Source: Pseudomonadota bacterium
GTDB lineage: Bacteria > Pseudomonadota > Gammaproteobacteria > Steroidobacterales > MnTg04
Assembly (NCBI GenBank): GCA_022572885.1
Contig: JACZVC010000022.1
Span: 1,039 to 56,676 of the forward strand
Reading direction: 5' to 3'
Length of the DNA: 55,638 bases
How positions within the stretch are numbered: the first letter of the stretch is position 1; the number at the start of each line of letters is the position of its first letter. Shown here piece by piece: positions 1,356 through 16,776 of this stretch. The translations under genes were made by a program, and so were the position numbers. Under the pieces are notes generated by a model. The model was not told the origin of the DNA. It saw only the letters and a program-made list of their open reading frames with translations, and ran no database searches.

Positions 1356-1556
1356 ACGTCCGCTATTGGCCGAGGCTGTGTGAAAACTCATCAGTTTTGG
1401 CGGCCGATGGGACAGTGCTTCACTTTGACAGCGTGCAGCGATCAGACAACGATTGACAGCCCACATTGGGGCTTGAAGTGAGTGTATTCGGCAAGGTTTT
1501 ACCACCATCTTTTTCAAATTCGGGTTTTCACACAGCCTCGGCCGAAAGCGGCCGGT
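1356..1556. repeat. Dispersed hairpin repeat, split by the MITE at 1372-1539
   Basis: The left part ACGTCCGCTATTGGCC (1356-1371) and the right part GGCCGAAAGCGG (1540-1551) together reconstruct the hairpin found intact at 18793-18823. The stem is GTCCGCT pairing with AGCGGAC (here AGCGGCC). The interruption is exactly the 168-bp element, with GGCC duplicated on both sides. Confidence 0.8.
1372..1539. mobile_element. MITE-like element, 168 bp, with 16-bp perfect terminal inverted repeats
   Basis: The ends are GAGGCTGTGTGAAAAC at 1372-1387 and its exact reverse complement at 1524-1539. Both sides carry a 4-bp direct duplication GGCC (1368-1371 and 1540-1543). Removing the element and one GGCC restores an intact copy of the dispersed hairpin. 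The interior has no reading frame of note, so the element is non-autonomous and would need a transposase from elsewhere. The 4-bp duplication fits IS5-like enzymes among others, but I cannot assign the family from memory. Confidence 0.8.
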
Positions 1557-1617
1557 CGCCGAGGCAATATTCTGATTGATTGAATGACCGATTTGGGAAA
1601 AGCAGACGTTCGACTGC

Positions 1618-1881
1618 TCAGTCTATCGGCCCACCGGAACTCAGCGCAGTGTGTATGTCGTCCAGTGCACCATTCACCACGTCCTGCATCACGCTCAGAA
1701 TTTTCAGCGGCGACGCCTCCTTGCTCAGAGTAGAAATCAGGTCGCTGTCGGTTGTTATGCGATTCTTGATCATTCCACTGAGTATGGATGCGATCTCGTG
1801 ATTCAGCGTCCACGCTTTATTGGATTCAATCAGGCTTCCGGCCGATTGAATCACCGAGTCGCACGTAGGTTTCGATGTCAT
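1618..1881 (-). CDS. Hypothetical small protein overlapping the 3' end of the decarboxylase gene
   Basis: Starting from an in-frame ATG at 1881, a frame of 87 codons ends with TGA at 1618-1620. It overlaps the last 56 nt of the upstream psd-like gene in another frame. The translation looks protein-like, with an alternation of hydrophobic and charged residues (for example IASILSGMIKNRITTDSDLI and ILSVMQDVVNGALDDI, which could form amphipathic helices). No Shine-Dalgarno is visible and I recognise no family. It could be the last, translationally coupled gene of the lipid operon or a chance frame. Confidence 0.35.
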   Translation of the reverse strand: MTSKPTCDSVIQSAGSLIESNKAWTLNHEIASILSGMIKNRITTDSDLISTLSKEASPLKILSVMQDVVNGALDDIHTALSSGGPID

Positions 1882-2731
1882 CGCGCGTGTTCGCAATGAG
1901 GTCGTCGTCGAACACAATCTTGTCGGTCTCGAAGAGCAGCACCACAGTCGATCCTCCCAGTTCGAAGAGACCCTTGCGCTGCGCCTTCTCGACGTGCTGT
2001 TCTGCTTGAAAACGCTGCCGGATCGAACCGACAGTGAACGCGCCTACCTCGACTAACGCCATGCTGCCGAAGTGCTCGGACTCGAAGCGGGTGAGCATTC
2101 GCTGGTTCTCCGCGTAGAAGGGAACAAGCGCGCGCCGCGCGTACGGGCTCACCGCGTAGAGTCCTCCGGCGATCGTCCGCGAAGGTCCCGGTGTGCCACC
2201 GTCGGGAAAATGAAAGTGATGGTAGTCTCGCAGGTACAACCGCGTGATGAACATGCTCCCGCCGGCGAAGCGTTCGGCGAGGTTGTCGTCGCTAAGCAGT
2301 TCACGCAAGTTGAACGTCGCGCGTTTGATGCGAAACGTGGCGTCAGGTTCGATGAAGGGGTAAACCAGGGCGCGTCCGTCGGCAGGAGAGATGCACACGT
2401 CAGGATCCCATCGCATTGTCCGTCGCGACAGGTCGATTTCGCGGATGAAGAAGTCGTTAAAGCTTTCGAATTCGTCGAGGGGACGCACGATTTCATCGAC
2501 ATTGACGCCCAATTGTTGCACAAAGGGTTTGATGCGGCGCCGGCTCCACCGCGTCTTCTGAAACCAACCATAGAGCCGCGATACCCATCGGTGCCGAAAG
2601 ACGGTGTCGGTAAGCAGCCTCCCGAAGGCTGTGTTGTATGACCAATCGAGGAACGCGTCGGCGTATATCTCGTCGTCGAGCAACTTGCCCTGCTCACGGT
2701 TGTAGTATGTCAGTGGATTCCTCTTTGTCAT
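1826..2731 (-). CDS. psd: Phosphatidylserine decarboxylase-like protein
   Basis: The 301-residue protein is of the Psd proenzyme family, which removes the carboxyl of phosphatidylserine to give phosphatidylethanolamine using a pyruvoyl cofactor made by self-cleavage. Visible motifs are the NDFFIRE segment near residue 92, PADGR with the catalytic Asp at 118, DYHHFHFP with the catalytic His near 171-172, and GGST at 259-262 where LGST is usual; cleavage would fall between Gly260 and Ser261. The ATG at 2731 overlaps the upstream stop as ATGA, which fixes the start. It is the last well-supported gene of the seven-gene lipid operon. Because the operon also encodes a BtaA-like enzyme, the substrate may be a non-standard amino-acid-headed lipid rather than ordinary phosphatidylserine; that is inference. 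A housekeeping psd would be expected elsewhere. Confidence 0.88.
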   Translation of the reverse strand: MTKRNPLTYYNREQGKLLDDEIYADAFLDWSYNTAFGRLLTDTVFRHRWVSRLYGWFQKTRWSRRRIKPFVQQLGVNVDEIVRPLDEFESFNDFFIREIDLSRRTMRWDPDVCISPADGRALVYPFIEPDATFRIKRATFNLRELLSDDNLAERFAGGSMFITRLYLRDYHHFHFPDGGTPGPSRTIAGGLYAVSPYARRALVPFYAENQRMLTRFESEHFGSMALVEVGAFTVGSIRQRFQAEQHVEKAQRKGLFELGGSTVVLLFETDKIVFDDDLIANTRDDIETYVRLGDSIGRKPD

Positions 2732-3861
2732 ATTTCGATCTCGTACAGGGTGTATTCGCGTTGCGCGGGCATGGCGTCGCGCCCACCAACGAGGCCCCGC
2801 GAGCGCCCGTCCTGTGGCATCAACGCCGCCACTATCGAGCGGTACCCGAGTGTGTGTAACGATTGTGTGACATGGCAAACGGCGGCACTGCCGAGACCGG
2901 TTTGCCTCGCCGCTTCCCGCGCGCTCAATCCGATAATGTAGAACACCAGGCGATCGACGCGACGGCGCCGCATGATAAATCGCAGTCGTGCGCAAATGCT
3001 GGTTTGGCCCCTCATGGCGCGAACCGCGGCAGACAGGTCGAGAAACGCCCCGGCGAAACCGGCGAGCTCACCTCGTGGATCGGTCACGAACGTAAACAAC
3101 CGCGGGTCGAGCGCGTACTTGAGCTTCGAGAACATAGCGACAAATTCGTCAATAGTGATCGGCGTGAATCCGAAAAACCCGGAGAAGGATTCGGTGAGTG
3201 CGCCATAGAGGCGAGTCAGCTCGCTATCGAAACGCGCATTGTCAAACTTGTCGAAACGGTAGCCATTGGCGACGAAATCCTGGTAGCGTGGCGTGCCCCA
3301 TGTAGTCAACTGCTCGATCGCATCCCCAATGACTTCGACCGACTCCCAGTTACGCTTCGGCCGCCATCCGTAACGCTCGAAGAAGCCGGGGTAGTACGGC
3401 TTGTTGTAAGGCTCGCCGTAAAACACGGGGCGGTCGAACCCGCGCGTCATCATTCGGTAGTCGTGCCAAATGTCGAAGTTCATCGGTCCCCAGACGCGGG
3501 TGATGCCATGGACACGTCGCAGCCAGTCGATTGCCGCCGTAAAGAGCTTCTCGGCGACCGCATAGTGGTCCACGCACTCGAAGAAGCCGACGGTGCCGAC
3601 TGCGCCGTCGGTTTCGCGCAAGTCGGCGTTAACCATGGCCGCTGCGTGTCCCACCGTTTTACCGCCGTCCATGGCGACGAAATTCATGCGGTCGTTGCCC
3701 GGTTTACGGCAGAATCGGTAGGACGGAGACAACTGCTCGCGCAGCGACGACTGGAAGGGCGCGATCCAGTTGTCGTCGCCGCGATAGAGTTCGGCGCCAA
3801 AGCGAACCATCCGGTCGGTCAGGGTGGTGTCGTCGCTGAAGTCGTGTACCGTCATCGTCAT
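2728..3861 (-). CDS. GNAT-like N-acyltransferase domain protein
   Basis: A 377-residue protein resembling the long GNAT-superfamily proteins of YghO type. Characteristic are an N-terminal FVAMDGGKTVGHAAAMVN strand pair (about 61-78), GPMNFDIWHDY (125-135) and FYGEPYNKPYYPGFFERYGW (147-166), then a second acyltransferase-like half and a C-terminal YTLYEIEI. The substrate and acyl donor are unknown; fatty acyl-CoA or acyl-ACP would be in keeping with the neighbours. I chose the ATG at 3861, one base after the upstream stop; longer starts would run into the upstream gene. Its own stop overlaps the psd-like start by four bases (ATGA). The central part from about residue 265 is arginine-rich and less typical, so the fold there is unsure. 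Confidence 0.7.
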   Translation of the reverse strand: MTMTVHDFSDDTTLTDRMVRFGAELYRGDDNWIAPFQSSLREQLSPSYRFCRKPGNDRMNFVAMDGGKTVGHAAAMVNADLRETDGAVGTVGFFECVDHYAVAEKLFTAAIDWLRRVHGITRVWGPMNFDIWHDYRMMTRGFDRPVFYGEPYNKPYYPGFFERYGWRPKRNWESVEVIGDAIEQLTTWGTPRYQDFVANGYRFDKFDNARFDSELTRLYGALTESFSGFFGFTPITIDEFVAMFSKLKYALDPRLFTFVTDPRGELAGFAGAFLDLSAAVRAMRGQTSICARLRFIMRRRRVDRLVFYIIGLSAREAARQTGLGSAAVCHVTQSLHTLGYRSIVAALMPQDGRSRGLVGGRDAMPAQREYTLYEIEI

Positions 3862-3862
3862 C

Positions 3863-5554
3863 TCACGACCAGGTGAAGAGCTCGCTGAAGAATTGCTCCA
3901 GCAAACCCGAAGCAAAAACCGCAAGAACGTATCCCTCGGCGAACGGACGAAGTTTGGACGATCGCGGGTTGGGGCGAAGAACGAAACGAATATGACCCGC
4001 CATGGTGATCACGTATGCGAGCAGGATGACTCCGGGGAAGAGTCCGGATAGCGACAAAGTGCGATAGAAATAGAGCCCGATGATCAAGGCCGCCGTCTGC
4101 GCGACAGTGGCAATCAACACCGCCCGGAGTCGGCCAAAGATCCGCGAATAGGTCACGTAGTCGTTCTCCTCCTCCGGTGCCCGGATCTTGCGCGAAATCT
4201 CCCACGCGAATATCGGTGCCCAATAGAAGGCGATCACCAGTGCCACCATCGACCCGCTGACTTCGTCAAGGGACAAGCCGTACTCGACGCCGAAGAGCAC
4301 CATCGCATAAAGCATGAGGACGGCGACAACCGGGTTGTGGGTGGCGAGATTGAGTAACAAATTGCGCCGGAGAATCTCGGGGATGAAAAAGTATCCAAAC
4401 ATCAAGTACGCATAACCGAGCAGGACCAGTGCCACCCACAGCGCGGGACCGGCGGCCATGTTGGTGAGCACAAACAACACCGATGCGATGGCGAGACTCG
4501 ACTTGATGTCAGAAACGCGCACGCGTCCCGATGGCACAGGTCGATCGCAGAACAGCACCCGGTCGACTTCGAGGTCCTTCAGCTCATCCATCAGCCGCAG
4601 GATGAGCAGGTGAAAAAAGAAGGTACACACGCCGATGACGCTGTACGCTGTGAACAGCGACGTTTCGAGCCCGTAAATGCTCTTCATCAGCGAGGCTACG
4701 CCGAGGTAAAGAACGGCGGCGATGGCGATGTGCACCGGTATCACGAACATTCCGGAAAAGTATGCCTGCATCCGCTCAAAGAAACTTTTTTGCCCGGGCT
4801 CGCGTGCGCGCCGCTGCAGCGTGACAATGGCCGTGACGAGGAGCACAGTCGATCCGATCTGAAGCCAAGGGCCAAACGCGGAACCGTGAAACGAGGTGAC
4901 CAGCAATACCAACGCGATCAGCGGCGACAACAAATTGTCCAATCCATCGGTGGCAATGGCCTCGGTTAACATGGTGACGACGGCCACGGCCACGGCGATT
5001 TTTAGACTGTCGAAGCCAGTCAGATCGGAGAATCGCAGCAGCACCGAATAGGTGCAGAGAAACGATACGACGAAGAACGCCAGCGACCCTTCTACCGACT
5101 TGTGTCCGCGTGTGGATCGATAGTGGGTGCATCCGAAACGTAAACCCACAACGGCGGCTGCGGTGTCGGCAAACGTGAGAATCAGGACGGGAATACAATA
5201 GAGCAGAGGATCGGCCCCGGCCAGCAGGAACAACATCGCTATCGCCAGAGGGAAATAGAACTCGCCGCCCGATTCCCGGTCGACACTACCTATAACCTCG
5301 CGAAGGCGAACCGGAAACCAGTTGGTGTGGCGAAGTACGGCAAGTCCGATCGCGCTGACGCCGCAGGCAATCACCACCGGCCACCACGTGGTGAAGAGCC
5401 AGGGGAGACTCAGCGCGAGCAGTCCGCTGCCCACATGGACGATCTTTCGCGCGGTTTCGGCGTGTATGGCGACTCGTTTGCGGACCGCCGCCGTGCCCAC
5501 CATGAGCCCGGAAACGCCGCCGACGGTGAGTGCGATGCCCAGATATGAATTCAT
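3863..5554 (-). CDS. Fusion: phytol/dolichol kinase-like (VTE5/SEC59) domain + UbiA-like prenyltransferase
   Basis: A 563-residue polytopic membrane protein with two recognisable halves. Residues about 1-250 look like CTP-dependent polyprenol/phytol kinases: ARKIVHVGSG (35-44), FADTAAAVVGLRFG (128-141) and RGHKSVEGSLAF (149-160), which is the nucleotide-binding signature of that family. Residues about 260-563 look like a UbiA-superfamily aromatic or lipid prenyltransferase. RLMDELKDLEVDR (320-332) stands where NDxxDxxxD is usual, giving a DxxxDxxxD spacing, followed by DRPVPSGR (337-344). The second Asp-rich motif appears weakened (ENDYVTYSRIFG). The kinase half would phosphorylate an isoprenoid alcohol and the prenyltransferase half would move an isoprenoid onto an acceptor, so the fusion could channel substrate. 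It is coupled on both sides: ATGA overlap with the upstream gene and a 1-nt gap downstream. Confidence 0.78.
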   Translation of the reverse strand: MNSYLGIALTVGGVSGLMVGTAAVRKRVAIHAETARKIVHVGSGLLALSLPWLFTTWWPVVIACGVSAIGLAVLRHTNWFPVRLREVIGSVDRESGGEFYFPLAIAMLFLLAGADPLLYCIPVLILTFADTAAAVVGLRFGCTHYRSTRGHKSVEGSLAFFVVSFLCTYSVLLRFSDLTGFDSLKIAVAVAVVTMLTEAIATDGLDNLLSPLIALVLLVTSFHGSAFGPWLQIGSTVLLVTAIVTLQRRAREPGQKSFFERMQAYFSGMFVIPVHIAIAAVLYLGVASLMKSIYGLETSLFTAYSVIGVCTFFFHLLILRLMDELKDLEVDRVLFCDRPVPSGRVRVSDIKSSLAIASVLFVLTNMAAGPALWVALVLLGYAYLMFGYFFIPEILRRNLLLNLATHNPVVAVLMLYAMVLFGVEYGLSLDEVSGSMVALVIAFYWAPIFAWEISRKIRAPEEENDYVTYSRIFGRLRAVLIATVAQTAALIIGLYFYRTLSLSGLFPGVILLAYVITMAGHIRFVLRPNPRSSKLRPFAEGYVLAVFASGLLEQFFSELFTWS

Positions 5555-6660
5555 TCGGCCACAACCTCTTCCACGATGAAATTGCTGTAGAAAAATGCCT
5601 TGTCCGCCTGATGGAGCCGAGCCGCTTCCGGTCGCGGTCGCAGCCGCTTTGCCAAAGTTTCAGGGCGGGTCCTGGGCACGAGCAGATTCCAATAAGCGAT
5701 GCGGGTGCCGGGCGCGGCGTAGGCCGTAATGCGTTCGAGAATGCCTGTGTAGTTTTCCTCGGACATGTACTCGAATACGTCGCTCAGGTTGTAGCTGTTC
5801 ACAGACCTTGCATCGTCGGAATGGAGAAAATCCTCCAGCGATTGAACGCGGCATTCGAGCCGATCGAGGTTGCTGCGAATCGCGTCGAAGTTTTCCGCCC
5901 GCAGCGCATAAGGCAACGCCGTGGGATGGCTACCAAAAAATATCCACTGCAAGTAAGAATTCTGTGACGGGTCGAGCTCGATGAGCGCGTGCCGCGCTCG
6001 CACAAGAATTCTATCGGACACGCACCCCTCGACGTATTTGAAGAAACTGGGGTCGCGGCCGGCCCATCCCATCACGAACCGGGAGAAAAAGATTCTGAAC
6101 ATCCTCCGCCAGCGCCAATTACTCCACACCTGCTCGTAGAACGCCTCGCGCTCAGAACGCGGCCGTGGCTCGAAAAGGCGCTCGACCGTATCGCGGCCGT
6201 GAACGGCCGGCAACACCCTGGTGCGAAACAGCCGGAAGTAGTTTTCGAATTTGCCCGCTGAGCCGATGCCACCCGCGACCGCGCCGGCCCGTGCATCCCA
6301 GAATGAACGCGTGTTCCTGGAAAGAAGCGAACGACATCGCCGATAGAGAGCAAGCCGGTCGTTGCCAGGACGCGATCCCATCAGGCGCAGCAGCTCGTTG
6401 TGTTCGAGCTCGCGATAGGCGGCAATACGCAATTCGATGCACGCGAGCTGCGCAGGATTGAGGTCAACAGCCACCACGCGTTGCGGGCCACGGCTGAGCA
6501 TGGCCAGCGCATTGTCGCCGGCCGATGCAATCGCAAAGCAACTATCGCCGGGTTGAATATCGAGCGCGGCGAGAAGCACGTCGGCATCTTCCCAACACTG
6601 GGCGTAGCGCAACAGGGAGAAACTAGCGCGTGATTCCACTTCGCTGGTTACGCCGGTCAC
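5551..6660 (-). CDS. BtaA-like (DUF3419) S-adenosylmethionine:lipid 3-amino-3-carboxypropyl transferase
   Basis: A 369-residue protein of the DUF3419/BtaA family. BtaA moves the aminocarboxypropyl group of S-adenosylmethionine to diacylglycerol, giving diacylglyceryl-homoserine, the precursor of betaine lipids. Visible are LRYAQCWEDADVLL near the N-terminus (17-30), the SAM-binding segment CFAIASAGDNALAML (41-55) with VVAVDLNPAQL (62-72), and the C-terminal YNLSDVFEYMS typical of the family. The start is a GTG at 6660 overlapping the upstream stop as GTGA; the track-length frame reaching to 6741 is just read-through. No BtaB methyltransferase is in the operon, so a fully methylated betaine lipid is not expected from these genes alone. 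The acceptor may be an isoprenoid or other glyceride; that is inference. Confidence 0.85.
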   Translation of the reverse strand: MTGVTSEVESRASFSLLRYAQCWEDADVLLAALDIQPGDSCFAIASAGDNALAMLSRGPQRVVAVDLNPAQLACIELRIAAYRELEHNELLRLMGSRPGNDRLALYRRCRSLLSRNTRSFWDARAGAVAGGIGSAGKFENYFRLFRTRVLPAVHGRDTVERLFEPRPRSEREAFYEQVWSNWRWRRMFRIFFSRFVMGWAGRDPSFFKYVEGCVSDRILVRARHALIELDPSQNSYLQWIFFGSHPTALPYALRAENFDAIRSNLDRLECRVQSLEDFLHSDDARSVNSYNLSDVFEYMSEENYTGILERITAYAAPGTRIAYWNLLVPRTRPETLAKRLRPRPEAARLHQADKAFFYSNFIVEEVVAE

Positions 6661-9350
6661 GCTTTTTCCTCGTCGCCGCCGGTGCGCCGAACGATTCCAC
6701 TGGCGCCATCGAACTCGACGGTGTCGCCGTTGCTCAGCCACCGGGTCACACCGGAGATGGAGACGATCGTTGGGATGCCCATTTCTCTCGCCATGATCGC
6801 CGAATGTGACAGGAGGTTACCGCGCTCGACGAGCAGACCCGACGCAAAGGGGAACAACATGATCCAGCTTGGATCGGTGCACTCGGCTACGAGAATGTCC
6901 CCTTGCTGCAGCATGGCCGTTCGCGGGTCGGTAACCACGCGCACCGCGCCGGAAACTTGTCCCGGGCAGCAGCCGATGCCGGTACGTGTGTCGCCGCCGT
7001 CATTGGTCCCAAGCGTGGCGTCAAAACAGTTGCGATATACGACCCCGCGAGTTTCGAAGCGATCGGGCGGCGGATCCTGGCGCTCGTATTCTGCGAACTC
7101 CTCCTTGCGCAGCGATATCAGCTTGCGCAGATCGGTGGTAACGGCGGTGCCTTCGACAAAATCAAGGACCTCGCGCGTGTGCAGGTAGAAGACGTCACGG
7201 GGATCGGCGAGCGCGTCGATGTTGCTGAGACGTTTGCCCAACTCGACGAAGATGCGGCGGACGCGGCCAAAGACTCGCGTTCGTTCCAAGCGCAGGTTTT
7301 CGCGGTTACGAATGGTGTCACGGGCATTACCGAGAACCCACTCGAACGTCCAACGCTTGAGTGTTTGCGACGCTAACGTGTGGCGAACACATTCCTCTGC
7401 CTCGGCGCGCAGCGCGCACCTGTTGTTGCCCGTGTCCGTCGCGGGCCCGATATTTTGCGCGGCCAGCGCCCCGATCGCACGCAGCAGCATCGTGGGGTCG
7501 TCGTGCAGCGTGTGACTTTCCAGCTTGAGCTCGTTGATGCAGCGATCGCCGAACTCCTCGAGATAGGATTGGTAAAGCCGATGAAACTCTTCGTCGGCTT
7601 CGATTTGCGGAGTAATTTCCCTGAACTCTGCTTCGCGTAGCGCGCGCGCGAGATCCTTGTTCCCGGCGGCGATCTGGGCCATCGTTTGTAAGCGCTCCGC
7701 CGGCTCGGTGCTGACCATGCCACCGGTTGCGCACAACAAGTTGTTTTGCAGGGTGCCGGCCTCATCACCGCACCATTTGACGCACAGCTTGCACAAAATC
7801 CCATAGAAGCTCATGGCGAAGAAGTCATTGATCAATGGTGCGTCCCAGCGTGTGATCAGTCGGCTCTCCAGCAAGCGGTACTCGCCCACGAGCTCGTTCG
7901 CGCGCAGCGTCGCCAGATCGGGACGCGTGGTCAGCGCCGCTTCGACGCGCCCGTAGAATCGCCGAATCTTGAAATCGAGAGTAAAGAGATTTACAACGAT
8001 CGAAATTGACGTCCTCAGCAAGCGAAAACACTCCGCTAGGCGTGATGGCAGCGATCGTTTCGTCGCCGTACCCAGCGCCTCTTCGGGGATCGGTTCCTGC
8101 AACCCGATCATTTGCTCGAAAAAAGTGGCGTTGGTGCGGTAACCGGGTGTCTGGGCGAGCAGCCGGTACCAGTTGAGCACGTTGTAGTACACGCGTCCGC
8201 GGATCAGCCCGATCATGTTCTTCAGGGCGGCGCGATTGTCATCGATACGTGCTTCCGGAATGGCGAAAATGCGACACAGTTGTGTGTACACGCCCTCGTA
8301 GGCGTTGCGCGCGAACGAAAACGTCAGGGGTGTGGTCACGCCGCGGTAACTCTCGGCGATGTTGCTGTTGTCCCAAATGTTAAGCGCGCCGCCGACGTCA
8401 GCGGTGATGGCGAACGAGGTGATGGGACGCGATTGCAACAGGTAGAGTTCTCCGGACGCCATCGCCCACTCGATATCCTGTGGCCGGCCGAAAAAGGTCT
8501 CCGCCTTGCGCACGAGTCTGGCCACCGATGCGACCTCGGTGTCGGAAAGCGCCCACTGTTCGGTTCGTCCTGCGTCCACAGCTACCGCTGCCACACCTTC
8601 CCGGGCCGAGGAGGAAAATCGGTGCTCGATCGTCTTTGTCGCCAACTCGCATGAGACCACAGCGCCGTGGCAGTCGACGCGATGGGTATCGGCGTCGGCA
8701 TCGCCCGAAACCAGCGCCGTACCCACGCCGAAAACTGATCCCACCACCGCGATGCCCCGATCACCGCTAACCGGGTCGATGCTGAAGGCCACGCCAGAGA
8801 CGTCGGCGTCGACCATTATCTGAATCAACACGGCTGGGACGCCGGGCGACGGCGAGAGTCCATGCTCCTTGCGATAGGCAAACACACGTTCGCCGAATCC
8901 AGAACGCCAAACGTCCGCAACACGGCACGGCACGTTCTCGAGCGAGACGAACAGATAGCTCTCCAATTGTCCCGCGAAAGAATGCTGGGCCGAATCCTCG
9001 TCCGCCGCCGACGAACGAACCGCAAAGCGCTGTCCGTCGCCCGCGAGTGTGTGCAGCTCGCTCATCAACGCCGACTTGACGTCGGGAGCCATCATCAGGT
9101 TGTCTAACAGCGCAGTAACGTCGTCGTAGGTCGTCGCTATGGCGAGGGCTTCGCGCTGCGCCTCAGTGACGCTTCGGTCGAAGGCGTCCGGTGCAAGCAC
9201 GATCCACGGCGGCACCGGAAAATCGGTGTCGCCAAGTGCGGCCAGCGCACCCGCTTTGCCGCCCAACGGTTGCGCCGGCGTCGCCTGGTCAAAACGGATA
9301 ATGCAGGACGACCCGTGTTCATCTGCTAGCGGTTTGGGTATCGCAGTCAC
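6657..9350 (-). CDS. PEP synthase / rifampin phosphotransferase-like dikinase
   Basis: A 897-residue protein with the two ends of the pyruvate,phosphate dikinase family. The N-terminal ATP-grasp part shows GGKAGAL (30-36) and VRSSAADED (111-119) with HSFAGQLESYL after it. The C-terminal swivelling phosphohistidine domain shows GNLLSHSAIMAREMG (about 844-858), with the phosphorylated histidine near 849. The PEP/pyruvate TIM-barrel of true PEP synthase is absent. This is the layout of rifampin phosphotransferase, which uses ATP to phosphorylate a hydroxyl of a small molecule, giving AMP and phosphate. In this operon the acceptor could be an isoprenoid alcohol or a lipid intermediate (inference). 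The start is GTG at 9350, overlapping the HMG-CoA reductase stop as GTGA; upstream read-through to 9599 is not part of the gene. The four-base overlap with the next gene is again GTGA. Confidence 0.82.
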   Translation of the reverse strand: MTAIPKPLADEHGSSCIIRFDQATPAQPLGGKAGALAALGDTDFPVPPWIVLAPDAFDRSVTEAQREALAIATTYDDVTALLDNLMMAPDVKSALMSELHTLAGDGQRFAVRSSAADEDSAQHSFAGQLESYLFVSLENVPCRVADVWRSGFGERVFAYRKEHGLSPSPGVPAVLIQIMVDADVSGVAFSIDPVSGDRGIAVVGSVFGVGTALVSGDADADTHRVDCHGAVVSCELATKTIEHRFSSSAREGVAAVAVDAGRTEQWALSDTEVASVARLVRKAETFFGRPQDIEWAMASGELYLLQSRPITSFAITADVGGALNIWDNSNIAESYRGVTTPLTFSFARNAYEGVYTQLCRIFAIPEARIDDNRAALKNMIGLIRGRVYYNVLNWYRLLAQTPGYRTNATFFEQMIGLQEPIPEEALGTATKRSLPSRLAECFRLLRTSISIVVNLFTLDFKIRRFYGRVEAALTTRPDLATLRANELVGEYRLLESRLITRWDAPLINDFFAMSFYGILCKLCVKWCGDEAGTLQNNLLCATGGMVSTEPAERLQTMAQIAAGNKDLARALREAEFREITPQIEADEEFHRLYQSYLEEFGDRCINELKLESHTLHDDPTMLLRAIGALAAQNIGPATDTGNNRCALRAEAEECVRHTLASQTLKRWTFEWVLGNARDTIRNRENLRLERTRVFGRVRRIFVELGKRLSNIDALADPRDVFYLHTREVLDFVEGTAVTTDLRKLISLRKEEFAEYERQDPPPDRFETRGVVYRNCFDATLGTNDGGDTRTGIGCCPGQVSGAVRVVTDPRTAMLQQGDILVAECTDPSWIMLFPFASGLLVERGNLLSHSAIMAREMGIPTIVSISGVTRWLSNGDTVEFDGASGIVRRTGGDEEKA

Positions 9351-10636
9351 GATTTGCCTTCGCGACCTTCGTCGAAGTTTCCACGCGCGAACCGTTCGTG
9401 GGCCTGCGTGAACTCGCGCGCACAGATGGCGCCGACAATCGAGAGCTCGCCAGCCATGCATAACGCGGCAACCACTTCGGCTAGTTCGTGTGCCCGGCCC
9501 GGTTTCTTGAGGCCGAGGATGTCGAGACACGCGCTCTGACTGGGAAGCTGTGTGCCGCCACCAACCGTTGCTACCATCAAATTGGGCAGCGTCACGCACA
9601 GGTGCAGGTCACCGTTTTCGGTGGTTTCAAAACGCGTTATCCCCACGGCCGACTCGGCGACGCAAGCCACATCCTGCCCACAGGCGAGGTAAAGTGCAGC
9701 CAGTCCATTGGCGTAGTGTCCTTGGGTGCCGATCGATCCGATCAGCAGGCTGGCTGCGGTGGCGAAGTTCGAGTAGCGGGTGATGTCTGCGGGAGTGGCG
9801 TGCAGTCGTTTCTCGACCAGATCCCTGGGCACGAACACTTCTGCAGTAACCTTGCGCCCGCGCACCGTCTGGAAGGATTGAATCGTCGCCTTCTTGTCGC
9901 CGGACAGATTGGACTCGGAGAAGTAAACCTTGGGCTTGATCGGGCTTTTTTCCAGGATGTATTTGCACATCGCTTCCGATGCGATGGTGGTCATGTTCTG
10001 GCCAGATGCATCACACGTGAAGAAATCGAACAGAAAGTAGACGTGGTTGCCCTCGAGGTTGAACTTGATGTCAATGAGTCTGCCGTGCTGTGTGGTTTTC
10101 TCGGCGGCGCGACGCAGTTTCTTGATATTGCGCATCGTCCAAATGAGAAAGTTCGACGCCTCGGCGAGGTTGTTGAACACAAAACCCGGGGCGCGGCTCA
10201 CTCCCTCGTTCGCCAGAATGGTAGTGCAACCGCCGGCTTCGCTAATCACGCGCGCACCGCGATTATACGACGCTACCAGCGTCGCCTCGGTGGTCGCCAA
10301 TGGATAATAGTAGTCGCCCTGCGCGAACATACCGTTGATGCGCAACGGGCCGGCGACACCCACCGGAACCTTCACCGTGCCGATAAAATTCTCCACGTTG
10401 CAGCGAAATCTCTCGCGCAGGCTCATCGACGTGTCGTCGGCGATAACTTCCCGGGCGGCATCGTCAACGGGAAGCACCTGCCAGCGCGCCGCTATCGTTT
10501 CTTCATCGGTGCCACGGGGGATGGGCGGCGGAAGTGCGTTGTGTTTGGGTCGAAGCCCATTCTTCCAGTCCAACTGTTCGTGGACGTCGTCAAGGTAGTC
10601 GAGGAAGTTTTGCAGTCGATTGAAATCTGTTGCCAT
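9347..10636 (-). CDS. Class I-like 3-hydroxy-3-methylglutaryl-CoA reductase
   Basis: A 429-residue soluble HMG-CoA reductase, which makes mevalonate from HMG-CoA with two NADPH. The four catalytic residues can all be placed: Glu117 in TTEATLVAS, Lys248 in SGDKKAT, Asp322 in ACGQDVA, and His413 in FTQAHERFAR. Other landmarks are FIGTVKVPVGVAGPL (84-98), TVGGGTQLPSQ (357-367) and MAGELSIVGA. The usual NADPH-binding DAMGMNM is DASGQNM (209-215), a variation that marks an unusual subfamily. There is no membrane anchor. A Shine-Dalgarno-like GAAGGGG precedes the ATG. It follows the exporter gene by 19 nt and overlaps the dikinase start. No other mevalonate-pathway gene is in the window, and gammaproteobacteria normally use the MEP route, so its product is probably used for a special purpose. 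Confidence 0.93.
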   Translation of the reverse strand: MATDFNRLQNFLDYLDDVHEQLDWKNGLRPKHNALPPPIPRGTDEETIAARWQVLPVDDAAREVIADDTSMSLRERFRCNVENFIGTVKVPVGVAGPLRINGMFAQGDYYYPLATTEATLVASYNRGARVISEAGGCTTILANEGVSRAPGFVFNNLAEASNFLIWTMRNIKKLRRAAEKTTQHGRLIDIKFNLEGNHVYFLFDFFTCDASGQNMTTIASEAMCKYILEKSPIKPKVYFSESNLSGDKKATIQSFQTVRGRKVTAEVFVPRDLVEKRLHATPADITRYSNFATAASLLIGSIGTQGHYANGLAALYLACGQDVACVAESAVGITRFETTENGDLHLCVTLPNLMVATVGGGTQLPSQSACLDILGLKKPGRAHELAEVVAALCMAGELSIVGAICAREFTQAHERFARGNFDEGREGKS

Positions 10637-10655
10637 GTTTAAACCCCTTCGGATG

Positions 10656-12923
10656 TTATTCGGCGTGCCGCCTGCTAAACAAAAACGAAATGAACGCGGG
10701 CAGCAGTACTAAATCTGTCACCAGCGCCGCCAACACTGCGACTGCCATCAAAAGGCCCGAGTTGCCGATGGCGTCGCTGCCGGCAAGCGAGATGACGAAG
10801 AAGCCCGCGCAAAAAACAAAACTCGTCATTACCACCGCGACCCCACTGGCTCGCGCCACTGCGCGCATCGCGTCGTCGAGAGCGGCGCCGGTAGCGAGCT
10901 CGCGCCGTAGCCGGTGCAGAATGTGCACGGTATCGTCGACGATCACGCCCAGCATCACTGCGGCAACGGTAACGGTGGCGATGTCCAGCTCGATGCCGGC
11001 GAATCCCATCACACCGAGCAGCATCGCTACGGGGAGCAGATTGGGCGGGATGGCCACCAGGGCGAAACGCCAGGAGCGCAGCACCAATGACACGACCAAG
11101 AAAACCATCACAAACGCGAGGCTGAAGCTCTTCACCTGGTCGCCGACCAGGTGTTCGATCATCTGGCTGTACAGCGGCAGATAGCCGCTCATAGAGACCT
11201 CGGCTTGGTCGCCGACGGCCGCTTGCGCCGTCGCACTCGCTCGCTCGGCTACTTCGATAAAGCCGCCGGCGCTCATCCCCGATGTGGTCGCCGTGAGTCG
11301 CAGCGTACGCCCGTCGGCCGCTACCAGGTGGTCGAGTATGTCGCTATTGCCGGTGCGTTCGAGCAGTGCCACCGTCATTTCGATCACATCGTCGCTTTCC
11401 GGCACCCACGGCCGAGGGATCACATCTCCGCTGGCACCTACATAAAAGTCGCGTAGCACATCGGCGATCGTGGTCGTGCGCCCGATAGCCGCGTCCGCTT
11501 CCAATGCCGTTTGCGCGGCAGCCACCGCGGCGAATAACTCACTGTCCATCCAGTTGTCGCCGCTCGTTCGCAGCGTCATCTCTAGAGGAAAATAGGGGCC
11601 GGCCGTGCGCTCAATGGCATCGGCGTCCCGCCGGGCCACGTTGTCTTCGGGAAGGAATCCAATGCTGTTCGTGTCCACGACGATCCTGGCCGCGCCCACT
11701 ATCGAGACTGCGACGACGAGCGACGTCACCACCAGCACGGTGGCGCGGCGGCGCATGGAAAACATCATGATGCACTCGACGATCTTGGCCAGCCACGCAA
11801 TTGAGCGGTCGGGCGGACGCAGTCGCGACACCCGCGGCAGCAGCGCCGACATCCCCGCCACTGCGAACACGAACGCGAACACCACGCCGATGGCAGCGAA
11901 CAAACCATAGTCGCGTGTAACGGCCATGCTCGCCGTCGTCAGTGACAGGAACGCCACTGCTGTGGTGACCGTGTTGAATGCGCACGGTATGGTCACTTCG
12001 GCGAGTGTGGTCGTGAGAGCCTGGATCGAGTTGCGCGCTCGGCCCAGGGCGATGTCGAGGTCGGTGGTCATGTGAACGACGTTGGCGACGCCGAGTATCA
12101 TCACCACCGGAGGCAGCGCTATCGTGACCATATTGACGGAGCGGCCGAGGAGCGACATGACTCCGAGCAGGGCGATGTCCGCCAGAGCGACCACCAATAG
12201 GGCGAGGACCGTCCACAGGCATCGCCGTGTGATCAGGAAAAGCGTGGCGGCGATGACCAGGTAGGACAGGCCGATGAAGAGGCTGCCCTCACCGATGGTC
12301 GCGCGGTTGAGCGCGTCATGGAGGACACCGATTCCGCCGTAGCTCGAATGCTCGGCTTCGTTTAGTTCTGCCTCGGTGGCGGTACGGATCGCTTCGAGTA
12401 TGCGCGGCCGCTCGATGTCAATGTCGCGGTTGGCCTCCATCCACGCGAACACCAAGAGCGTCGAGCCGTCGCGCCCGACCAGTCGCGATGCCAGTCCGTC
12501 AATAGCGACCACCGCGCGGGCGCGCAGCAGATCGTCGTTGCCAACAGGGAGGTCGACTGCGGGAACGAGCCGCGGCTCAGCGCCGGCCACGAGAACGCCG
12601 GTGTTGGCCAAGCTATGCACCCGGGCAACGCCGCCGATTTCTTCCAGGGCGCTACTCAGGTGGGCGAGTCGTTCCAAGCGGTCGGGCGCGAACACGTCGT
12701 CCGAACCGTGAATCGCGATGACGACCACCTCATCGTTGCCGAACTCTTCGAGGAATGTCTGGTACGAAACCAGTGCGGGGTCATCCTCGACGAACCACGC
12801 CTCAATCGAGTTGTCGATGCTGAGTCTGCTTGCAAACACGCCGAGCACGATGGTCAGCACGAGCGCTACCGATACCACGACGATGCGTCGTTGCACGAGA
12901 AAGTAGACGAATTTGGTCAGCAT
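10656..12923 (-). CDS. RND/MMPL-superfamily exporter (COG1033 type)
   Basis: A 755-residue inner-membrane protein with the doubled RND layout. It has an N-terminal membrane segment (about 11-32) and a periplasmic domain opening with SIDNSIEAWFVEDDPAL, then a group of five membrane helices (about 215-370). The pattern then repeats with a membrane segment near 395-415, a periplasmic part and a C-terminal helix group. Length and lack of TolC-type partners point to the lipid-handling branch (MMPL/HpnN-like, COG1033) rather than multidrug AcrB. In this operon the natural role is export of the lipid product across or out of the inner membrane (inference). It is the first gene of the operon; AGGAAA lies about 7 nt before the ATG. 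No membrane-fusion protein is encoded nearby. Confidence 0.88.
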   Translation of the reverse strand: MLTKFVYFLVQRRIVVVSVALVLTIVLGVFASRLSIDNSIEAWFVEDDPALVSYQTFLEEFGNDEVVVIAIHGSDDVFAPDRLERLAHLSSALEEIGGVARVHSLANTGVLVAGAEPRLVPAVDLPVGNDDLLRARAVVAIDGLASRLVGRDGSTLLVFAWMEANRDIDIERPRILEAIRTATEAELNEAEHSSYGGIGVLHDALNRATIGEGSLFIGLSYLVIAATLFLITRRCLWTVLALLVVALADIALLGVMSLLGRSVNMVTIALPPVVMILGVANVVHMTTDLDIALGRARNSIQALTTTLAEVTIPCAFNTVTTAVAFLSLTTASMAVTRDYGLFAAIGVVFAFVFAVAGMSALLPRVSRLRPPDRSIAWLAKIVECIMMFSMRRRATVLVVTSLVVAVSIVGAARIVVDTNSIGFLPEDNVARRDADAIERTAGPYFPLEMTLRTSGDNWMDSELFAAVAAAQTALEADAAIGRTTTIADVLRDFYVGASGDVIPRPWVPESDDVIEMTVALLERTGNSDILDHLVAADGRTLRLTATTSGMSAGGFIEVAERASATAQAAVGDQAEVSMSGYLPLYSQMIEHLVGDQVKSFSLAFVMVFLVVSLVLRSWRFALVAIPPNLLPVAMLLGVMGFAGIELDIATVTVAAVMLGVIVDDTVHILHRLRRELATGAALDDAMRAVARASGVAVVMTSFVFCAGFFVISLAGSDAIGNSGLLMAVAVLAALVTDLVLLPAFISFLFSRRHAE

Positions 12924-13047
12924 GAGCGTTTCCTATTCGTGGCTAACCGCAAAACTCCTTTGTTTACTAAGGTGGGAGGAACTCAGCCATGTGAGTCCTT
13001 CCGCTTATGGTCATGGAACAACCATACCCAGGCATGGCATACACGGG

Positions 13048-13087
13048 ACTTACACAGGACTTACAATTCACTTACAATTCACTTACA
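13048..13087. promoter_or_regulatory. Array of four ACTTACA heptamers at 11-bp spacing (likely SARP-type operator)
   Basis: ACTTACA occurs perfectly at 13048, 13059, 13070 and 13081, so the repeat distance is exactly 11 bp, one helical turn, with 4-bp spacers (CAGG, ATTC, ATTC). A weaker fifth copy, GCATACA, sits in phase at 13037. SARP-family activators are known to bind heptameric direct repeats 11 bp apart just upstream of a -10 box. The neighbouring gene at 13437 encodes a protein with a SARP-type C-terminus, so it is the obvious candidate to bind here. That binding is inferred. Confidence 0.8.
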
Positions 13088-13211
13088 CAATGCGCTCAGC
13101 GGCAGGTGATTATGGTGAAACGCTACGTAAGGCTGTTACGGCCGATATCGTGGCTTCAATCGGTCTCAGGCTTGTCTTTGCGGGACCCAAGTAGATGGTC
13201 GATTGCCGCAC

Positions 13212-13232
13212 TAACAAGTGCTGCACTTGTTA
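13212..13232. promoter_or_regulatory. Perfect dyad, 10-bp arms with 1-bp spacer
   Basis: TAACAAGTGC, then T, then GCACTTGTTA: the arms are exact reverse complements. The size and symmetry fit an operator for a dimeric helix-turn-helix protein. It lies about 150 bp upstream of the regulator promoter and about 125 bp from the heptamer array. A hairpin in RNA is also possible, but no T-run follows. No binding protein can be named. Confidence 0.55.
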
Positions 13233-13252
13233 CCAGAATGACCTGTGCATTT

Positions 13253-13284
13253 ATGTCTGCTATCGACCCAAAGCCGACCATTCC
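13253..13284. repeat. Degenerate copy of dispersed hairpin repeat
   Basis: ATGTCTGCTATCGACCCAAA followed by GCCGACCATTCC resembles the copy at 18851-18882, with a few substitutions in both arms (TCTGCT and AGCCGAC). Confidence 0.55.
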
Positions 13285-13382
13285 CTAAAACTGTCGGCGC
13301 AATTTACAGGCTGTACAGCAATGGAGTCGTAACTCGCTGATTTTGTTGCGCGACACTTTGATTTATCGCTGGCGTTTCTGGC

Positions 13383-13413
13383 TTGACAACTTCAGGATCA
13401 GCGACCATATACT
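13383..13413 (+). promoter_or_regulatory. Sigma-70-like promoter of the regulator gene
   Basis: A perfect TTGACA at 13383-13388 and TATACT at 13408-13413 (five of six to TATAAT), with a 19-nt spacer that is longer than ideal. Transcription would begin near 13420, so the leader before the ATG at 13437 is very short and the TTG at 13419 would be at or before the transcript start. Confidence 0.55.
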
Positions 13414-13436
13414 AGTTTTTGGTCCTAAAGACACGC

Positions 13437-16400
13437 ATGCAACATTCGGCCGTCAGGTTCGCAAAAATCAGCCGCCCGCGTCTGCCGAAGATCGCGTCCC
13501 GGCCCCGATTGTTCACGCTGCTGGATGAGGGCAGGCAAAGGTCAATAATCTGGGTATCCGGCTCGCCCGGGTCGGGCAAGACCACGCTGGTTGCCGATTA
13601 TCTCGATACCTGGGCAGTTGATGATGTTTGGTACCAAGCCGATGAAAGCGACGGCGATGTCGCCACCTTCTTTTATTACCTGTCCCGGGCGGTCACTGAT
13701 TCGGACGATAGCGATGCCAAGCCCCTGCCGGCCTTTTCTCCCCAGTATCTGAGCGATCTCCCGGCGTTCTCTCACGGTTATTTTCGCGAGCTTTTCGCCC
13801 GCCTGGCGCAGCCTTTCGCTGTGGTTATCGACAATTTCCAGGATGTGCCCGCCAAATCGCAATTTCATGATGTGATTCGTAATGGCCTGGCCGAGATACC
13901 TCAAGGGTGTTGCGTGGTCATCATCAGCCGGGAAGAGCCGCCGGCCTGGATGGCGAGAATCAGGGCGAACCAGCGCATGCTCGCGCTCGACCAGTCCGAC
14001 ATGAGGCTCACGCGAGAAGAATCCGATGCCGTCATCCGCGTTCGCGGGCACGAATTTGACGAAGAGGCCTGTGAGCGATTATTTCAGCGAACCCGTGGGT
14101 GGGTCGCCGGTCTGGTCCTGATGCTCGAGCAACAGCACGGGAGCAGACCGATACATGACGTTCAGGAAGATTCTACGCCACAGGTGATTTTCGATTACCT
14201 GGCGGCCGAGGTCATCAAACGGCTGCCCGATCAAGATTATGAATTGATGTTGCAGACCTGTTTGCTGCCGCAGGTTACCGCAAAGCAGGCCGATACGCTA
14301 ACTAACCGCAACGACACAGAAAATATTCTGAGTGTTCTCGCGCGCAACGATTTCTTCGTCACTTCCAGGCACGGTCTGGATGAAATCATCTATGAATATC
14401 ATCCCTTGCTGCGTGAGTTCTTGTTGGGCAGGGCCAAAGTAAAGCTGGGCAAGAAGGAATTCGCAGAACTGCAGGAGCGTGCGGCGAGCCTGCTGGAGCA
14501 GGAAGGACAAATCGAGGATGCGATCAATCTGCGCGTCGAAAACCGACAATGGGATGAACTGGCCAAGCTCGTCAAGCAACATGCAGCGACGGTGCTGGGG
14601 CAGGGGCGCGACGAAACCTTGCAGGAATGGCTGGAGAAGTTACCCTCCAAATTCGTGGAAGGTGATCCCTGGATGTCTTACTGGATGGGTGCTTGTCGTA
14701 CCGCGTATGCGCCGGTGGAAAGCCAGCTTTTCTGCGAGCGCGCTTACACGATGTTCCGCGAACAGCAACCGGTCGATCGGGATGGGCTTTTCATGGCCTG
14801 TGGCGGCGTGCTGGACGCGATTTTGTACGATCTTAACGACCTGAGCCCGCTGGATCACTGGATCAGTGAAGTCGAGCGGCTGCTGGTGGAATACCCGGAT
14901 TTCCCCGAACACCCTTATGGCGCCAGGGTGACCTACAACATGTACCTGTCGCTGGCCTATCGGCAGACCTCACACCCGGAAATCGAGCATTGGGCGGAAC
15001 GTACGGTTGGCGTAATCGAAAAGGCGCACGATTCGGCTACCCGCTTACGGGCTGTGACCATGCTGTGTTCCGGGATTGTCTGGACCGGGCGCTTTGACGT
15101 TGCGCGGACGTTTATCGAATCCATACGCCAGATTGTCGATGAACCGGATGTGCCACCGATCGCGGTCACCACCTTGCATGCGTTCGAGGCCATGCATTAC
15201 ATGCTCCTGGGACAACACGAAGATTGTCTGAAGGTCGCCGGTCAGGGTCTGAAAGCGGCGCGAGACAGTGGTATTCATGTGTGGCGGAACACGACGCTGA
15301 TTTTTGGTGGGGCCGGGGCGCTGGGCGCCGGGGACTTTGAAATCGCAGAAAGCATGTTGGCACAAATCGATGAGGACGCATTAAAAGCCAGGCGCTTCGA
15401 TGCCAGTTTGTATTATCTTGTCCGTGCCTGGATCGCGATGGAAAGGAGTGATCCGCAGGATGCTTTCAATCAGCAGAGGACCGCGCTGAGGCTGATCCAG
15501 GAACTCGGTCTGCCGTTTTTCGAAGCCATCATGAGGATCGGTATGGCACAGATTCAGTTTGAACTCGGCGATACCCGGAAAAGCTTCGAGCACTTGAAAA
15601 AGGTCAGAAGATTTGTCCGGGCCATCGACAACCGTCTATTCGAGTTTTCGAGTCTCCTGATCTATGCCTATCTGGCGTTCGAGTACCACCGCAAGTCGCA
15701 GGGACTGCGCGCCTTGAGTGCGGCGCTAAAATTGGGCCGGGAAAATAATTATTCATTCACCTTCTGGTGGCAAAGGCGGTTGATGGCCAGGTTGGCTGTC
15801 ATCGCCTTACGCAGCGGGATTGAACCTGAATACGTCAAGTGGCTGATTGTAAAACGGCGACTGATGCCCGATAAGCCACCATTGGATGTCGAAGGTTGGC
15901 CGTGGATGTTCAGAGTCACGACGATGGGAAAATTCCATATTGAGTGGGTCGGGCAGGCGGCCAGGAAAAAGAAAGGCAAGGCACAGGGAAGGCCCATCGA
16001 GCTGCTACAGGTAATCATTGCTTTTGGCGGGATAGATGTTCGCGTACAGAAAATTGCCGATGCTATGTGGCCGCACATCGACAGCGACTACGCCAACCGT
16101 TCTTTCAACACGACACTTCACCGCCTACGCAACATCCTCGGCGATGAGCAGGCGCTGATTCTCGAAGGTGGCCGGCTGAGCCTTAATCCGAGTCTTTTCT
16201 GGCTCGATCTCTGGGCGATGGAGCAGGCGCAGAAGCAGGTCAGCGGGATGATCGCCGGTGAAATCGCCGGAGGCCTCGATGACATCAGGGCAGTGGTTGG
16301 CAAGATCATGAATATCTACCAGGGTGCTTTCCTTGGCGATGAAGAAGCGTCCTGGGCGATTGGTATACGCGAGCAGGTCAGAAACCGATTCACACGATTC

Positions 16401-16652
16401 ACCAGCCAGATTGTCAATTATTTCAATGCAAATGATTGTCCGGACGAAGCGATTGACTTGCTCGAGCATGCCCTCGAGACCGATGACCGATCGGAAAGTC
16501 TTTACAGGCTGTTAATGCTTTGCCACGCGGAGCAGGGACGCAAGGCCGAAGCCATAGAAGTGTACAACCGCTGTCGGACCACGCTAGAAGGCACACTGGG
16601 CGTAACCCCATCACCGGAAACCGAAAAAATTTATCAGCAGATTCGAGGCTGA
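13437..16652 (+). CDS. MalT-like ATPase with SARP/BTAD-type C-terminus, transcriptional regulator
   Basis: About 1071 residues from the ATG at 13437 (a TTG at 13419 in frame is less likely given the promoter position). The N-terminus, KISRPRLPKIASRPRLFTLL, is that of MalT/STAND regulators. Walker A GSPGSGKTT lies near 42-50, and an ALDQSDMRLTREE stretch is typical of the arginine/sensor part. The long middle is helical, TPR-like. Instead of the LuxR helix-turn-helix of MalT, the C-terminus (about 840-1071) has an OmpR/SARP-like winged helix (RPIELLQVIIAFGG, NTTLHRLRNILGDE) followed by a bacterial transcriptional activator domain ending EGTLGVTPSPETEKIYQQI. Such proteins bind ATP and a signal ligand, oligomerise and activate promoters. 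It diverges from the lipid operon and the heptamer array lies between, so control of that operon is the natural inference. Confidence 0.9.
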   Translation: MQHSAVRFAKISRPRLPKIASRPRLFTLLDEGRQRSIIWVSGSPGSGKTTLVADYLDTWAVDDVWYQADESDGDVATFFYYLSRAVTDSDDSDAKPLPAFSPQYLSDLPAFSHGYFRELFARLAQPFAVVIDNFQDVPAKSQFHDVIRNGLAEIPQGCCVVIISREEPPAWMARIRANQRMLALDQSDMRLTREESDAVIRVRGHEFDEEACERLFQRTRGWVAGLVLMLEQQHGSRPIHDVQEDSTPQVIFDYLAAEVIKRLPDQDYELMLQTCLLPQVTAKQADTLTNRNDTENILSVLARNDFFVTSRHGLDEIIYEYHPLLREFLLGRAKVKLGKKEFAELQERAASLLEQEGQIEDAINLRVENRQWDELAKLVKQHAATVLGQGRDETLQEWLEKLPSKFVEGDPWMSYWMGACRTAYAPVESQLFCERAYTMFREQQPVDRDGLFMACGGVLDAILYDLNDLSPLDHWISEVERLLVEYPDFPEHPYGARVTYNMYLSLAYRQTSHPEIEHWAERTVGVIEKAHDSATRLRAVTMLCSGIVWTGRFDVARTFIESIRQIVDEPDVPPIAVTTLHAFEAMHYMLLGQHEDCLKVAGQGLKAARDSGIHVWRNTTLIFGGAGALGAGDFEIAESMLAQIDEDALKARRFDASLYYLVRAWIAMERSDPQDAFNQQRTALRLIQELGLPFFEAIMRIGMAQIQFELGDTRKSFEHLKKVRRFVRAIDNRLFEFSSLLIYAYLAFEYHRKSQGLRALSAALKLGRENNYSFTFWWQRRLMARLAVIALRSGIEPEYVKWLIVKRRLMPDKPPLDVEGWPWMFRVTTMGKFHIEWVGQAARKKKGKAQGRPIELLQVIIAFGGIDVRVQKIADAMWPHIDSDYANRSFNTTLHRLRNILGDEQALILEGGRLSLNPSLFWLDLWAMEQAQKQVSGMIAGEIAGGLDDIRAVVGKIMNIYQGAFLGDEEASWAIGIREQVRNRFTRFTSQIVNYFNANDCPDEAIDLLEHALETDDRSESLYRLLMLCHAEQGRKAEAIEVYNRCRTTLEGTLGVTPSPETEKIYQQIRG

Positions 16653-16663
16653 CAGGTTTTGCC

Positions 16664-16776
16664 GCTGTCATGGCCTCGCGGCCGAAAGCGGACATTAAAG
16701 GCTGAAAACCGTCGTTCCTGGTGAAAGGTCGCTTTACGACCCAAAGCGGACATTCAATGAACCTTGCGGACATTCT
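16664..16776. repeat. Cluster of dispersed hairpin repeats
   Basis: Three copies or part-copies: GGCCGAAAGCGGACATT within 16664-16696, GTCGCTTTACGACCCAAAGC plus GGACATTC at 16728-16756, and a short CTTGCGGACATTC just before the next ATG. It fills nearly the whole gap between the regulator and the WD40-type gene and overlaps the region where a Shine-Dalgarno would lie. Confidence 0.75.

Follow-up and report, generated by a model that had tools for sequence, protein, structure and literature searches.

In a 55,638-nucleotide stretch of proteobacterial DNA (the window), four perfect heptamers at an 11-bp period form a putative operator (13048..13087, minus strand; ACTTACA on the plus strand, TGTAAGT on the minus strand). 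Very probably, the SARP-like ATPase regulator encoded next to it uses this array as its operator, and the divergent MMPL/HMG-CoA-reductase operon is transcribed from an activator-dependent promoter that has the array at its core. The array, its geometry, its conservation and its co-occurrence with the regulator were brought out by sequence comparison. Since the host belongs to the Proteobacteria, the setting lies outside Actinobacteria.

The perfect copies start at 13048, 13059, 13070 and 13081 and are separated by the spacers CAGG, ATTC and ATTC. Thus, all four heptamers of the original prediction are present at exact 11-bp spacing. The fifth, weak copy that it had placed in phase at 13037 is also there (13037..13043, minus strand; GCATACA on the plus strand, TGTATGC on the minus strand). 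It matches the heptamer in 5 of 7 letters and is the copy closest to the -10 element; degenerate promoter-proximal copies are usual among the other arrays. The minus-strand sequence of the array is TGTAAGTGAAT TGTAAGTGAAT TGTAAGTCCTG TGTAAGTCCCG TGTATGCCATG CCTGGG TATGGT. The functional reading of the repeat should be TGTAAGT, on the minus strand and toward the lipid operon. The MMPL start codon (12923) is located 125 bp downstream of the end of the last perfect copy. A genome-wide pattern scan for ACTTACA-N4-ACTTACA with at most one mismatch identified the window as the sole location in its own 2.76-Mb genome, and the reversed control pattern had no match across this genome. Two overlapping triples and one quadruple of identical heptamers at 11-bp period are found in the window, and no triple of this kind appeared in 60 Markov-1 resamplings of it.

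A near-identical contig (L011 = G235:C48; L011:5641-5669) has three perfect copies, exactly one 11-bp unit fewer than the window. The remaining intergenic region of the two aligns without further differences. The repeat number might tune promoter strength. A change from four to three perfect copies between near-identical contigs is also what would be expected of a slipping repeat, and the array could be read as a tandem-repeat expansion without a regulatory role. We consider this highly improbable, because homologues with 35-52% protein identity are preceded by the same word with the same spacing and -10 offset, and in the window's genus the heptamers are kept while the spacers drift. Chance or pure repeat slippage was ruled out by the comparative data together with the Markov resampling.

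A -10-like hexamer, TATGGT (13021..13026, minus strand), follows 10 bp past the last heptamer, the weak fifth copy, and 6 bp past the last 11-bp unit. It matches TATAAT in 4 of 6 positions, and the same hexamer is found at identical distance in L049/L159. For comparison, arrays were aligned on their last in-phase copy, defined as one with at least 4 of 7 matches to the heptamer. Of 26 arrays, 14 show a hexamer of the form NANNNT at a distance of exactly 10 bp past this copy. After removal of orthologous duplicates, such a hexamer was seen at the exact 10-bp offset in 11 of 20 arrays and was absent from it in 9 of 20; other offsets averaged ~0.9. With last-copy thresholds of 3 and 5 instead of 4, the 10-bp offset was occupied in 8/20 and 9/20 arrays, respectively. 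The hexamers at 10 bp include TATGGT (window, L159), TATGTT (L151), TAGGCT (L135), CATAAT (L140) and TACCTT (L189). In the group of L121, L122 and L071, TATGCT or TATAAT is found at 9 bp instead. The 22-bp afs box of the AfsR-afsS complex extends from -40 to -19 and the -10 hexamer starts at -12, leaving 6 bp in between (PMC10936776). Heptamer, N4 spacer and 6 bp add up to the same distance here. The 3' repeat thus stands at the short fixed distance from the -10 that is seen for AfsR, 6 bp past the 11-bp unit.

The MMPL and HMG-CoA reductase genes lie on the minus strand and the regulator gene on the plus strand, in line with the predicted divergence of regulator and lipid operon. The first gene of the presumed target operon encodes an MMPL/HAE3 transporter (10656..12923). 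It is followed, likewise on the minus strand, by genes for an HMG-CoA reductase (9347..10636), a PEP-synthase-like ATP-dependent enzyme also matching PigC/RedH ligases (6657..9599), a DUF3419 (BtaA-type) protein (5551..6741), a UbiA-family prenyltransferase (3863..5554), a GNAT-domain protein (2728..3924) and a phosphatidylserine decarboxylase-like protein (1826..2995). The gene content of 1826-12923 suggests an operon for making and exporting an unusual isoprenoid or lipid. A search of 369 genomes of the class (E 1e-70) returned no MMPL orthologue beyond the window's own genome, and G002, which belongs to the same genus, does not have the MMPL gene. The operon is shared by genome G235 only; independent operon copies with an array were thus not found for comparison.

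The regulator gene (13437..16652, plus strand) encodes a protein with a MalT-like ATPase, a TPR-like middle part and, at the C-terminus, a winged helix and a BTAD domain. The protein has 1071 residues when counted from ATG 13437, which is preferred because it matches the starts of homologues; the reading frame is open from TTG 13419. A SARP/BTAD-like C-terminus had been proposed for this gene, and PF03704 indeed matches there with 71.9 bits (cut-off 22.1; residues 959-1076 of 1077 in the numbering of the longer reading frame). The ATPase contains the P-loop GSPGSGKT and matches NF003420 (MalT) over residues 9-428 with 195.7 bits (E 1e-57), a score far below the equivalog cut-off of 537. A profile of winged helix plus BTAD covers the AfsR SARP domain (residues 51-284) end to end (8hvr, E 8e-17) and also matches EmbR (E 6e-9). 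The AfsR contact residues W74, T88, R92 and R94 are aligned with W, T, R and R. The position of K95 is N in the window protein and K in most homologues; the set of five DNA-contact residues (W74, T88, R92, R94, K95) was counted as conserved. P79 and S91 of AfsR are not conserved.

The winged helix is followed by a BTAD domain as in SARPs, with the BTAD at the C-terminus and not, as part of a SARP domain, at the N-terminus. The N-terminal MalT-like ATPase is that of the LAL (MalT) family. No LuxR-type helix-turn-helix was found at the C-terminus of the regulator, where winged helix and BTAD are located. A phmmer search with 177 residues around the winged helix alone matched no solved structure, and an AlphaFold2 model of the C-terminal 250 residues, with three close sequences only, had pLDDT values <50 for the winged helix. 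A plasmid collection contained one relative, distant and partial. Judged by domain, operator and spacing, the regulator would work like a SARP, although its SARP domain is not N-terminal. Truncated family members of ~740 residues without the ATPase part were observed at three loci (L105, L114 and L115, i.e. G462:C3, G315:C45 and G569:C2). A TGTAAG(T/C) pair still precedes the truncated members of G462 and G569 (L134, L135).

Homologues of the regulator were gathered from the order and the class, and the window's heptamer was searched for in the 500 bp upstream of 53 distant ones (24-52% identity). At least 12 of 14 letters of ACTTACA-N4-ACTTACA were matched in 11 of the 53 loci, and 13 letters in 8. 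Other gaps between 0 and 19 yielded 0-2 loci at the threshold of 12/14 and none at 13. The average for 60 permuted heptamers was 0.5 loci, the two highest being frame-shifted versions of ACTTACA. The array-positive loci include proteins at 52, 47, 46, 44, 44, 43, 42 and 35% identity. At such distances, intergenic DNA would normally no longer be alignable, so that the word seems to be selected along with the protein. The heptamers are direct repeats at an 11-bp period, as expected of SARP operators (11 or 22 bp). Arrays occur in both orientations. For most of the loci inspected closely, TGTAAGT is directed toward a nearby start codon, which is either that of the regulator itself (L050, L088, L121, L122) or that of the divergent gene (window, L048, L049, L103, L118). 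Upstream of the 41 homologues without TGTAAGT, a de novo search for any 11-bp-periodic word gave no enrichment, which limits the heptamer rule to part of the family.

The original prediction had named orthologous regions without spaced heptamers as the observation that would speak against it. On examination, distant orthologues have the heptamer, the 11-bp period and a -10 at SARP distance. Together, the proportion of array-positive homologues and the fixed distance of the -10 strongly support the idea of a matched regulator-operator pair outside Actinobacteria.

Association of the site with the regulator was also quantified across the order (296 genomes). Allowing up to one mismatch, the site was present in 7 of 8 genomes with a close homologue (38% identity or more; the 8 include the partial G190) and in 45 of 288 genomes without one (Fisher p = 2.5e-5). 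Exact sites were found solely in genomes with the regulator. Sites in 24 genomes gave 12 separate arrays within ~500 bp upstream of a family member; some of these genomes were picked for a known site, and the scan of 53 homologues is the unselected test. Behind other arrays lie genes for a fatty-acid desaturase (L155), a patatin-like protein (L147) and a DUF992 protein (L138); the first two assignments were made by eye on the translations. The array targets lean to envelope and lipid functions. Taken together, these comparisons support an association of the proteobacterial ATPase-TPR-winged helix-BTAD clade with putative TGTAAG(T/C) operators at 11-bp period and with a -10 at SARP distance.

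PhoB and OmpR-family response regulators also bind direct repeats of 11-bp period just upstream of the -10. Pho boxes agree with the array in period, resemble it in their position with respect to the -10, and have TGTNA in common with the heptamer. Moreover, the DUF3419 (BtaA-type) gene lies in the operon, and lipid genes would fit a remodelling of lipids under phosphate starvation. Nevertheless, a Pho-box-like site for PhoB or another response regulator of this family is quite improbable. The word conserved across the arrays is TGTAAG(T/C) and not the Pho-box CTGTCAT, and the genes read behind the arrays included no pst or pho gene. In addition, the sites track the ATPase-BTAD gene, a linkage that would not be explained by PhoB, which is common in such genomes.

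A second regulator, 86% identical and with an identical recognition helix, is encoded on contig C14 of the same genome. In the 500-bp scan, neither this paralogue nor the orthologue of G002 had an array in its own upstream region. The paralogue was considered as a counter-example; this was resolved by arrays found nearby. A convergent operon downstream of it encodes a BamE-like lipoprotein, a PQQ dehydrogenase, an epimerase/3-beta-HSD-like protein and a DUF6962 protein. Two arrays, 572 bp apart, precede the first and the second gene of this operon, at ~4.3-4.9 kb from the paralogue. Both are conserved in four species (G000, G002, G004 and two contigs of G003). Across the five contigs, 48/56 columns of the heptamers and 10/12 of the -10 hexamers are invariant, compared to 14/32 in the spacers and 33/120 in the upstream flank. 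In G087 and G093, where the regulators are 46 and 44% identical, the array is likewise followed by a divergent lipoprotein gene whose product resembles the BamE-like one; that of G087 scores just above the Pfam BamE cut-off.

With the same recognition helix, the C14 paralogue could bind the window array too, and the identity of the two helices makes cross-binding likely. The sign of control is fixed by nothing in the sequence. The array might thus be an operator of this regulator family that serves to repress the lipid operon, or one for which the C14 paralogue is the main regulator. We regard both variants as improbable. The heptamers end 10 bp before the -10, which is the place of a SARP activator, and do not lie over the start site. 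Moreover, the block has its own regulator and is common to the window and G235 as a unit. An activator site of the adjacent regulator is the preferred reading.

Operon, operator and regulator form a block (1540..16693) that matches G235:C48 (L047:231-15373) at 99.46% and has GGCCGAAAGCGG repeats at both ends. The similarity ends at both edges, and the flanks are unrelated. G235 is assigned to another family than the genome of the window. Either the block moves as a unit and was transferred recently, or one metagenome contig was misbinned. Direct repeats of GGCCGAAAGCGG at window positions 1540, 16680, 18807 and 21260 delimit successive cassettes, namely the 15-kb lipid block, a PD40/WD40-like gene and a TPR gene. 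The first of these cassettes is exactly the block shared with G235. The longer GGCCGAAAGCGGAC is also found in two copies in L189 (same genome, C14). Two tyrosine recombinases, one with DUF6538 and one XerC/D-like, are encoded downstream of the cassette region (23143-24489 and 30875-31819, both on the minus strand).

In the mechanism proposed here, successive TGTAAGT heptamers would be occupied by monomers of the C-terminal winged-helix/BTAD part, all along one face of the DNA. Thereby, the promoter-proximal heptamers would take the place of a -35 element, and the bound regulator would hold RNA polymerase on the TATGGT -10, 6 bp past the last 11-bp unit, in the manner of AfsR at afsS. Activation may be gated through a ligand by the MalT-like ATPase at the N-terminus together with the TPR region. 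Binding, activation, sigma contact and the inducer are parts of the model that we infer. We also favour, with some caution, a wider model, in which the clade with inverted architecture uses SARP-style sigma adaptation at TGTAAG(T/C) arrays for envelope and lipid genes, and in which one set of regulator, operator and operon is passed from family to family as a self-contained unit that brings along an activator-dependent promoter of its own. An operator word, a spacing and a -10 rule for this proteobacterial clade would make its regulons predictable from sequence. They would also offer a way of switching on an uncharacterised isoprenoid/lipid cluster, and allow asking whether the SARP mode of holding sigma predates Actinobacteria or spread beyond them.

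BTAD proteins are widely annotated outside Actinobacteria. To our knowledge, SARPs have been studied almost exclusively in Actinobacteria, as switches of antibiotic clusters, and a search of the open-access literature found no described operator for SARP/BTAD proteins outside this group. What is new is the SARP-like operator logic outside Actinobacteria, with an inverted domain order; the layout itself is known from antibiotic regulators of Streptomyces. The closest comparison is AfsR, a large SARP of Streptomyces coelicolor, with its afs box at afsS (PMC10936776). It also combines 11-bp direct repeats with a winged helix and BTAD, and likewise has an ATPase (NOD) and a TPR part within one protein. 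Opposite its base-contact residues T88 and R92, the window regulator has T and R. In the AfsR structure R92 contacts T, the third base of the repeat (PMC10936776); TGTAAGT has T at this position as well, and R is the residue aligned with R92. In AfsR, however, the SARP domain is N-terminal and binds two repeats, whereas in the window it is C-terminal, behind a MalT-type ATPase, and faces four to five copies. The word is different as well, the host belongs to the Proteobacteria and the target is a lipid operon.

SARP-LAL regulators of the PimR type (Streptomyces; PMC5930380) likewise join a LAL-like part to a SARP domain. The PimR operator consists of three heptamers with 4-bp spacers, and the regulator gene is divergent from its target, as in the window. 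Unlike the window system, PimR recognizes the heptamer CGGCAAG, has its SARP domain at the N-terminus, and belongs to polyene antibiotic clusters of Actinobacteria; its main operator, unlike the window array, does not overlap the -35 box (PMC5930380). MalT and other LAL regulators have an N-terminal ATPase and a TPR-like region, as does the window regulator, which differs from them by a BTAD at the C-terminus in place of the LuxR-type helix-turn-helix. The Pho box with PhoB also combines 11-bp direct repeats upstream of the -10 with a winged-helix protein. The window array, in contrast, has the word TGTAAG(T/C) and is linked to an ATPase-BTAD regulator, not to phoB or pst genes.
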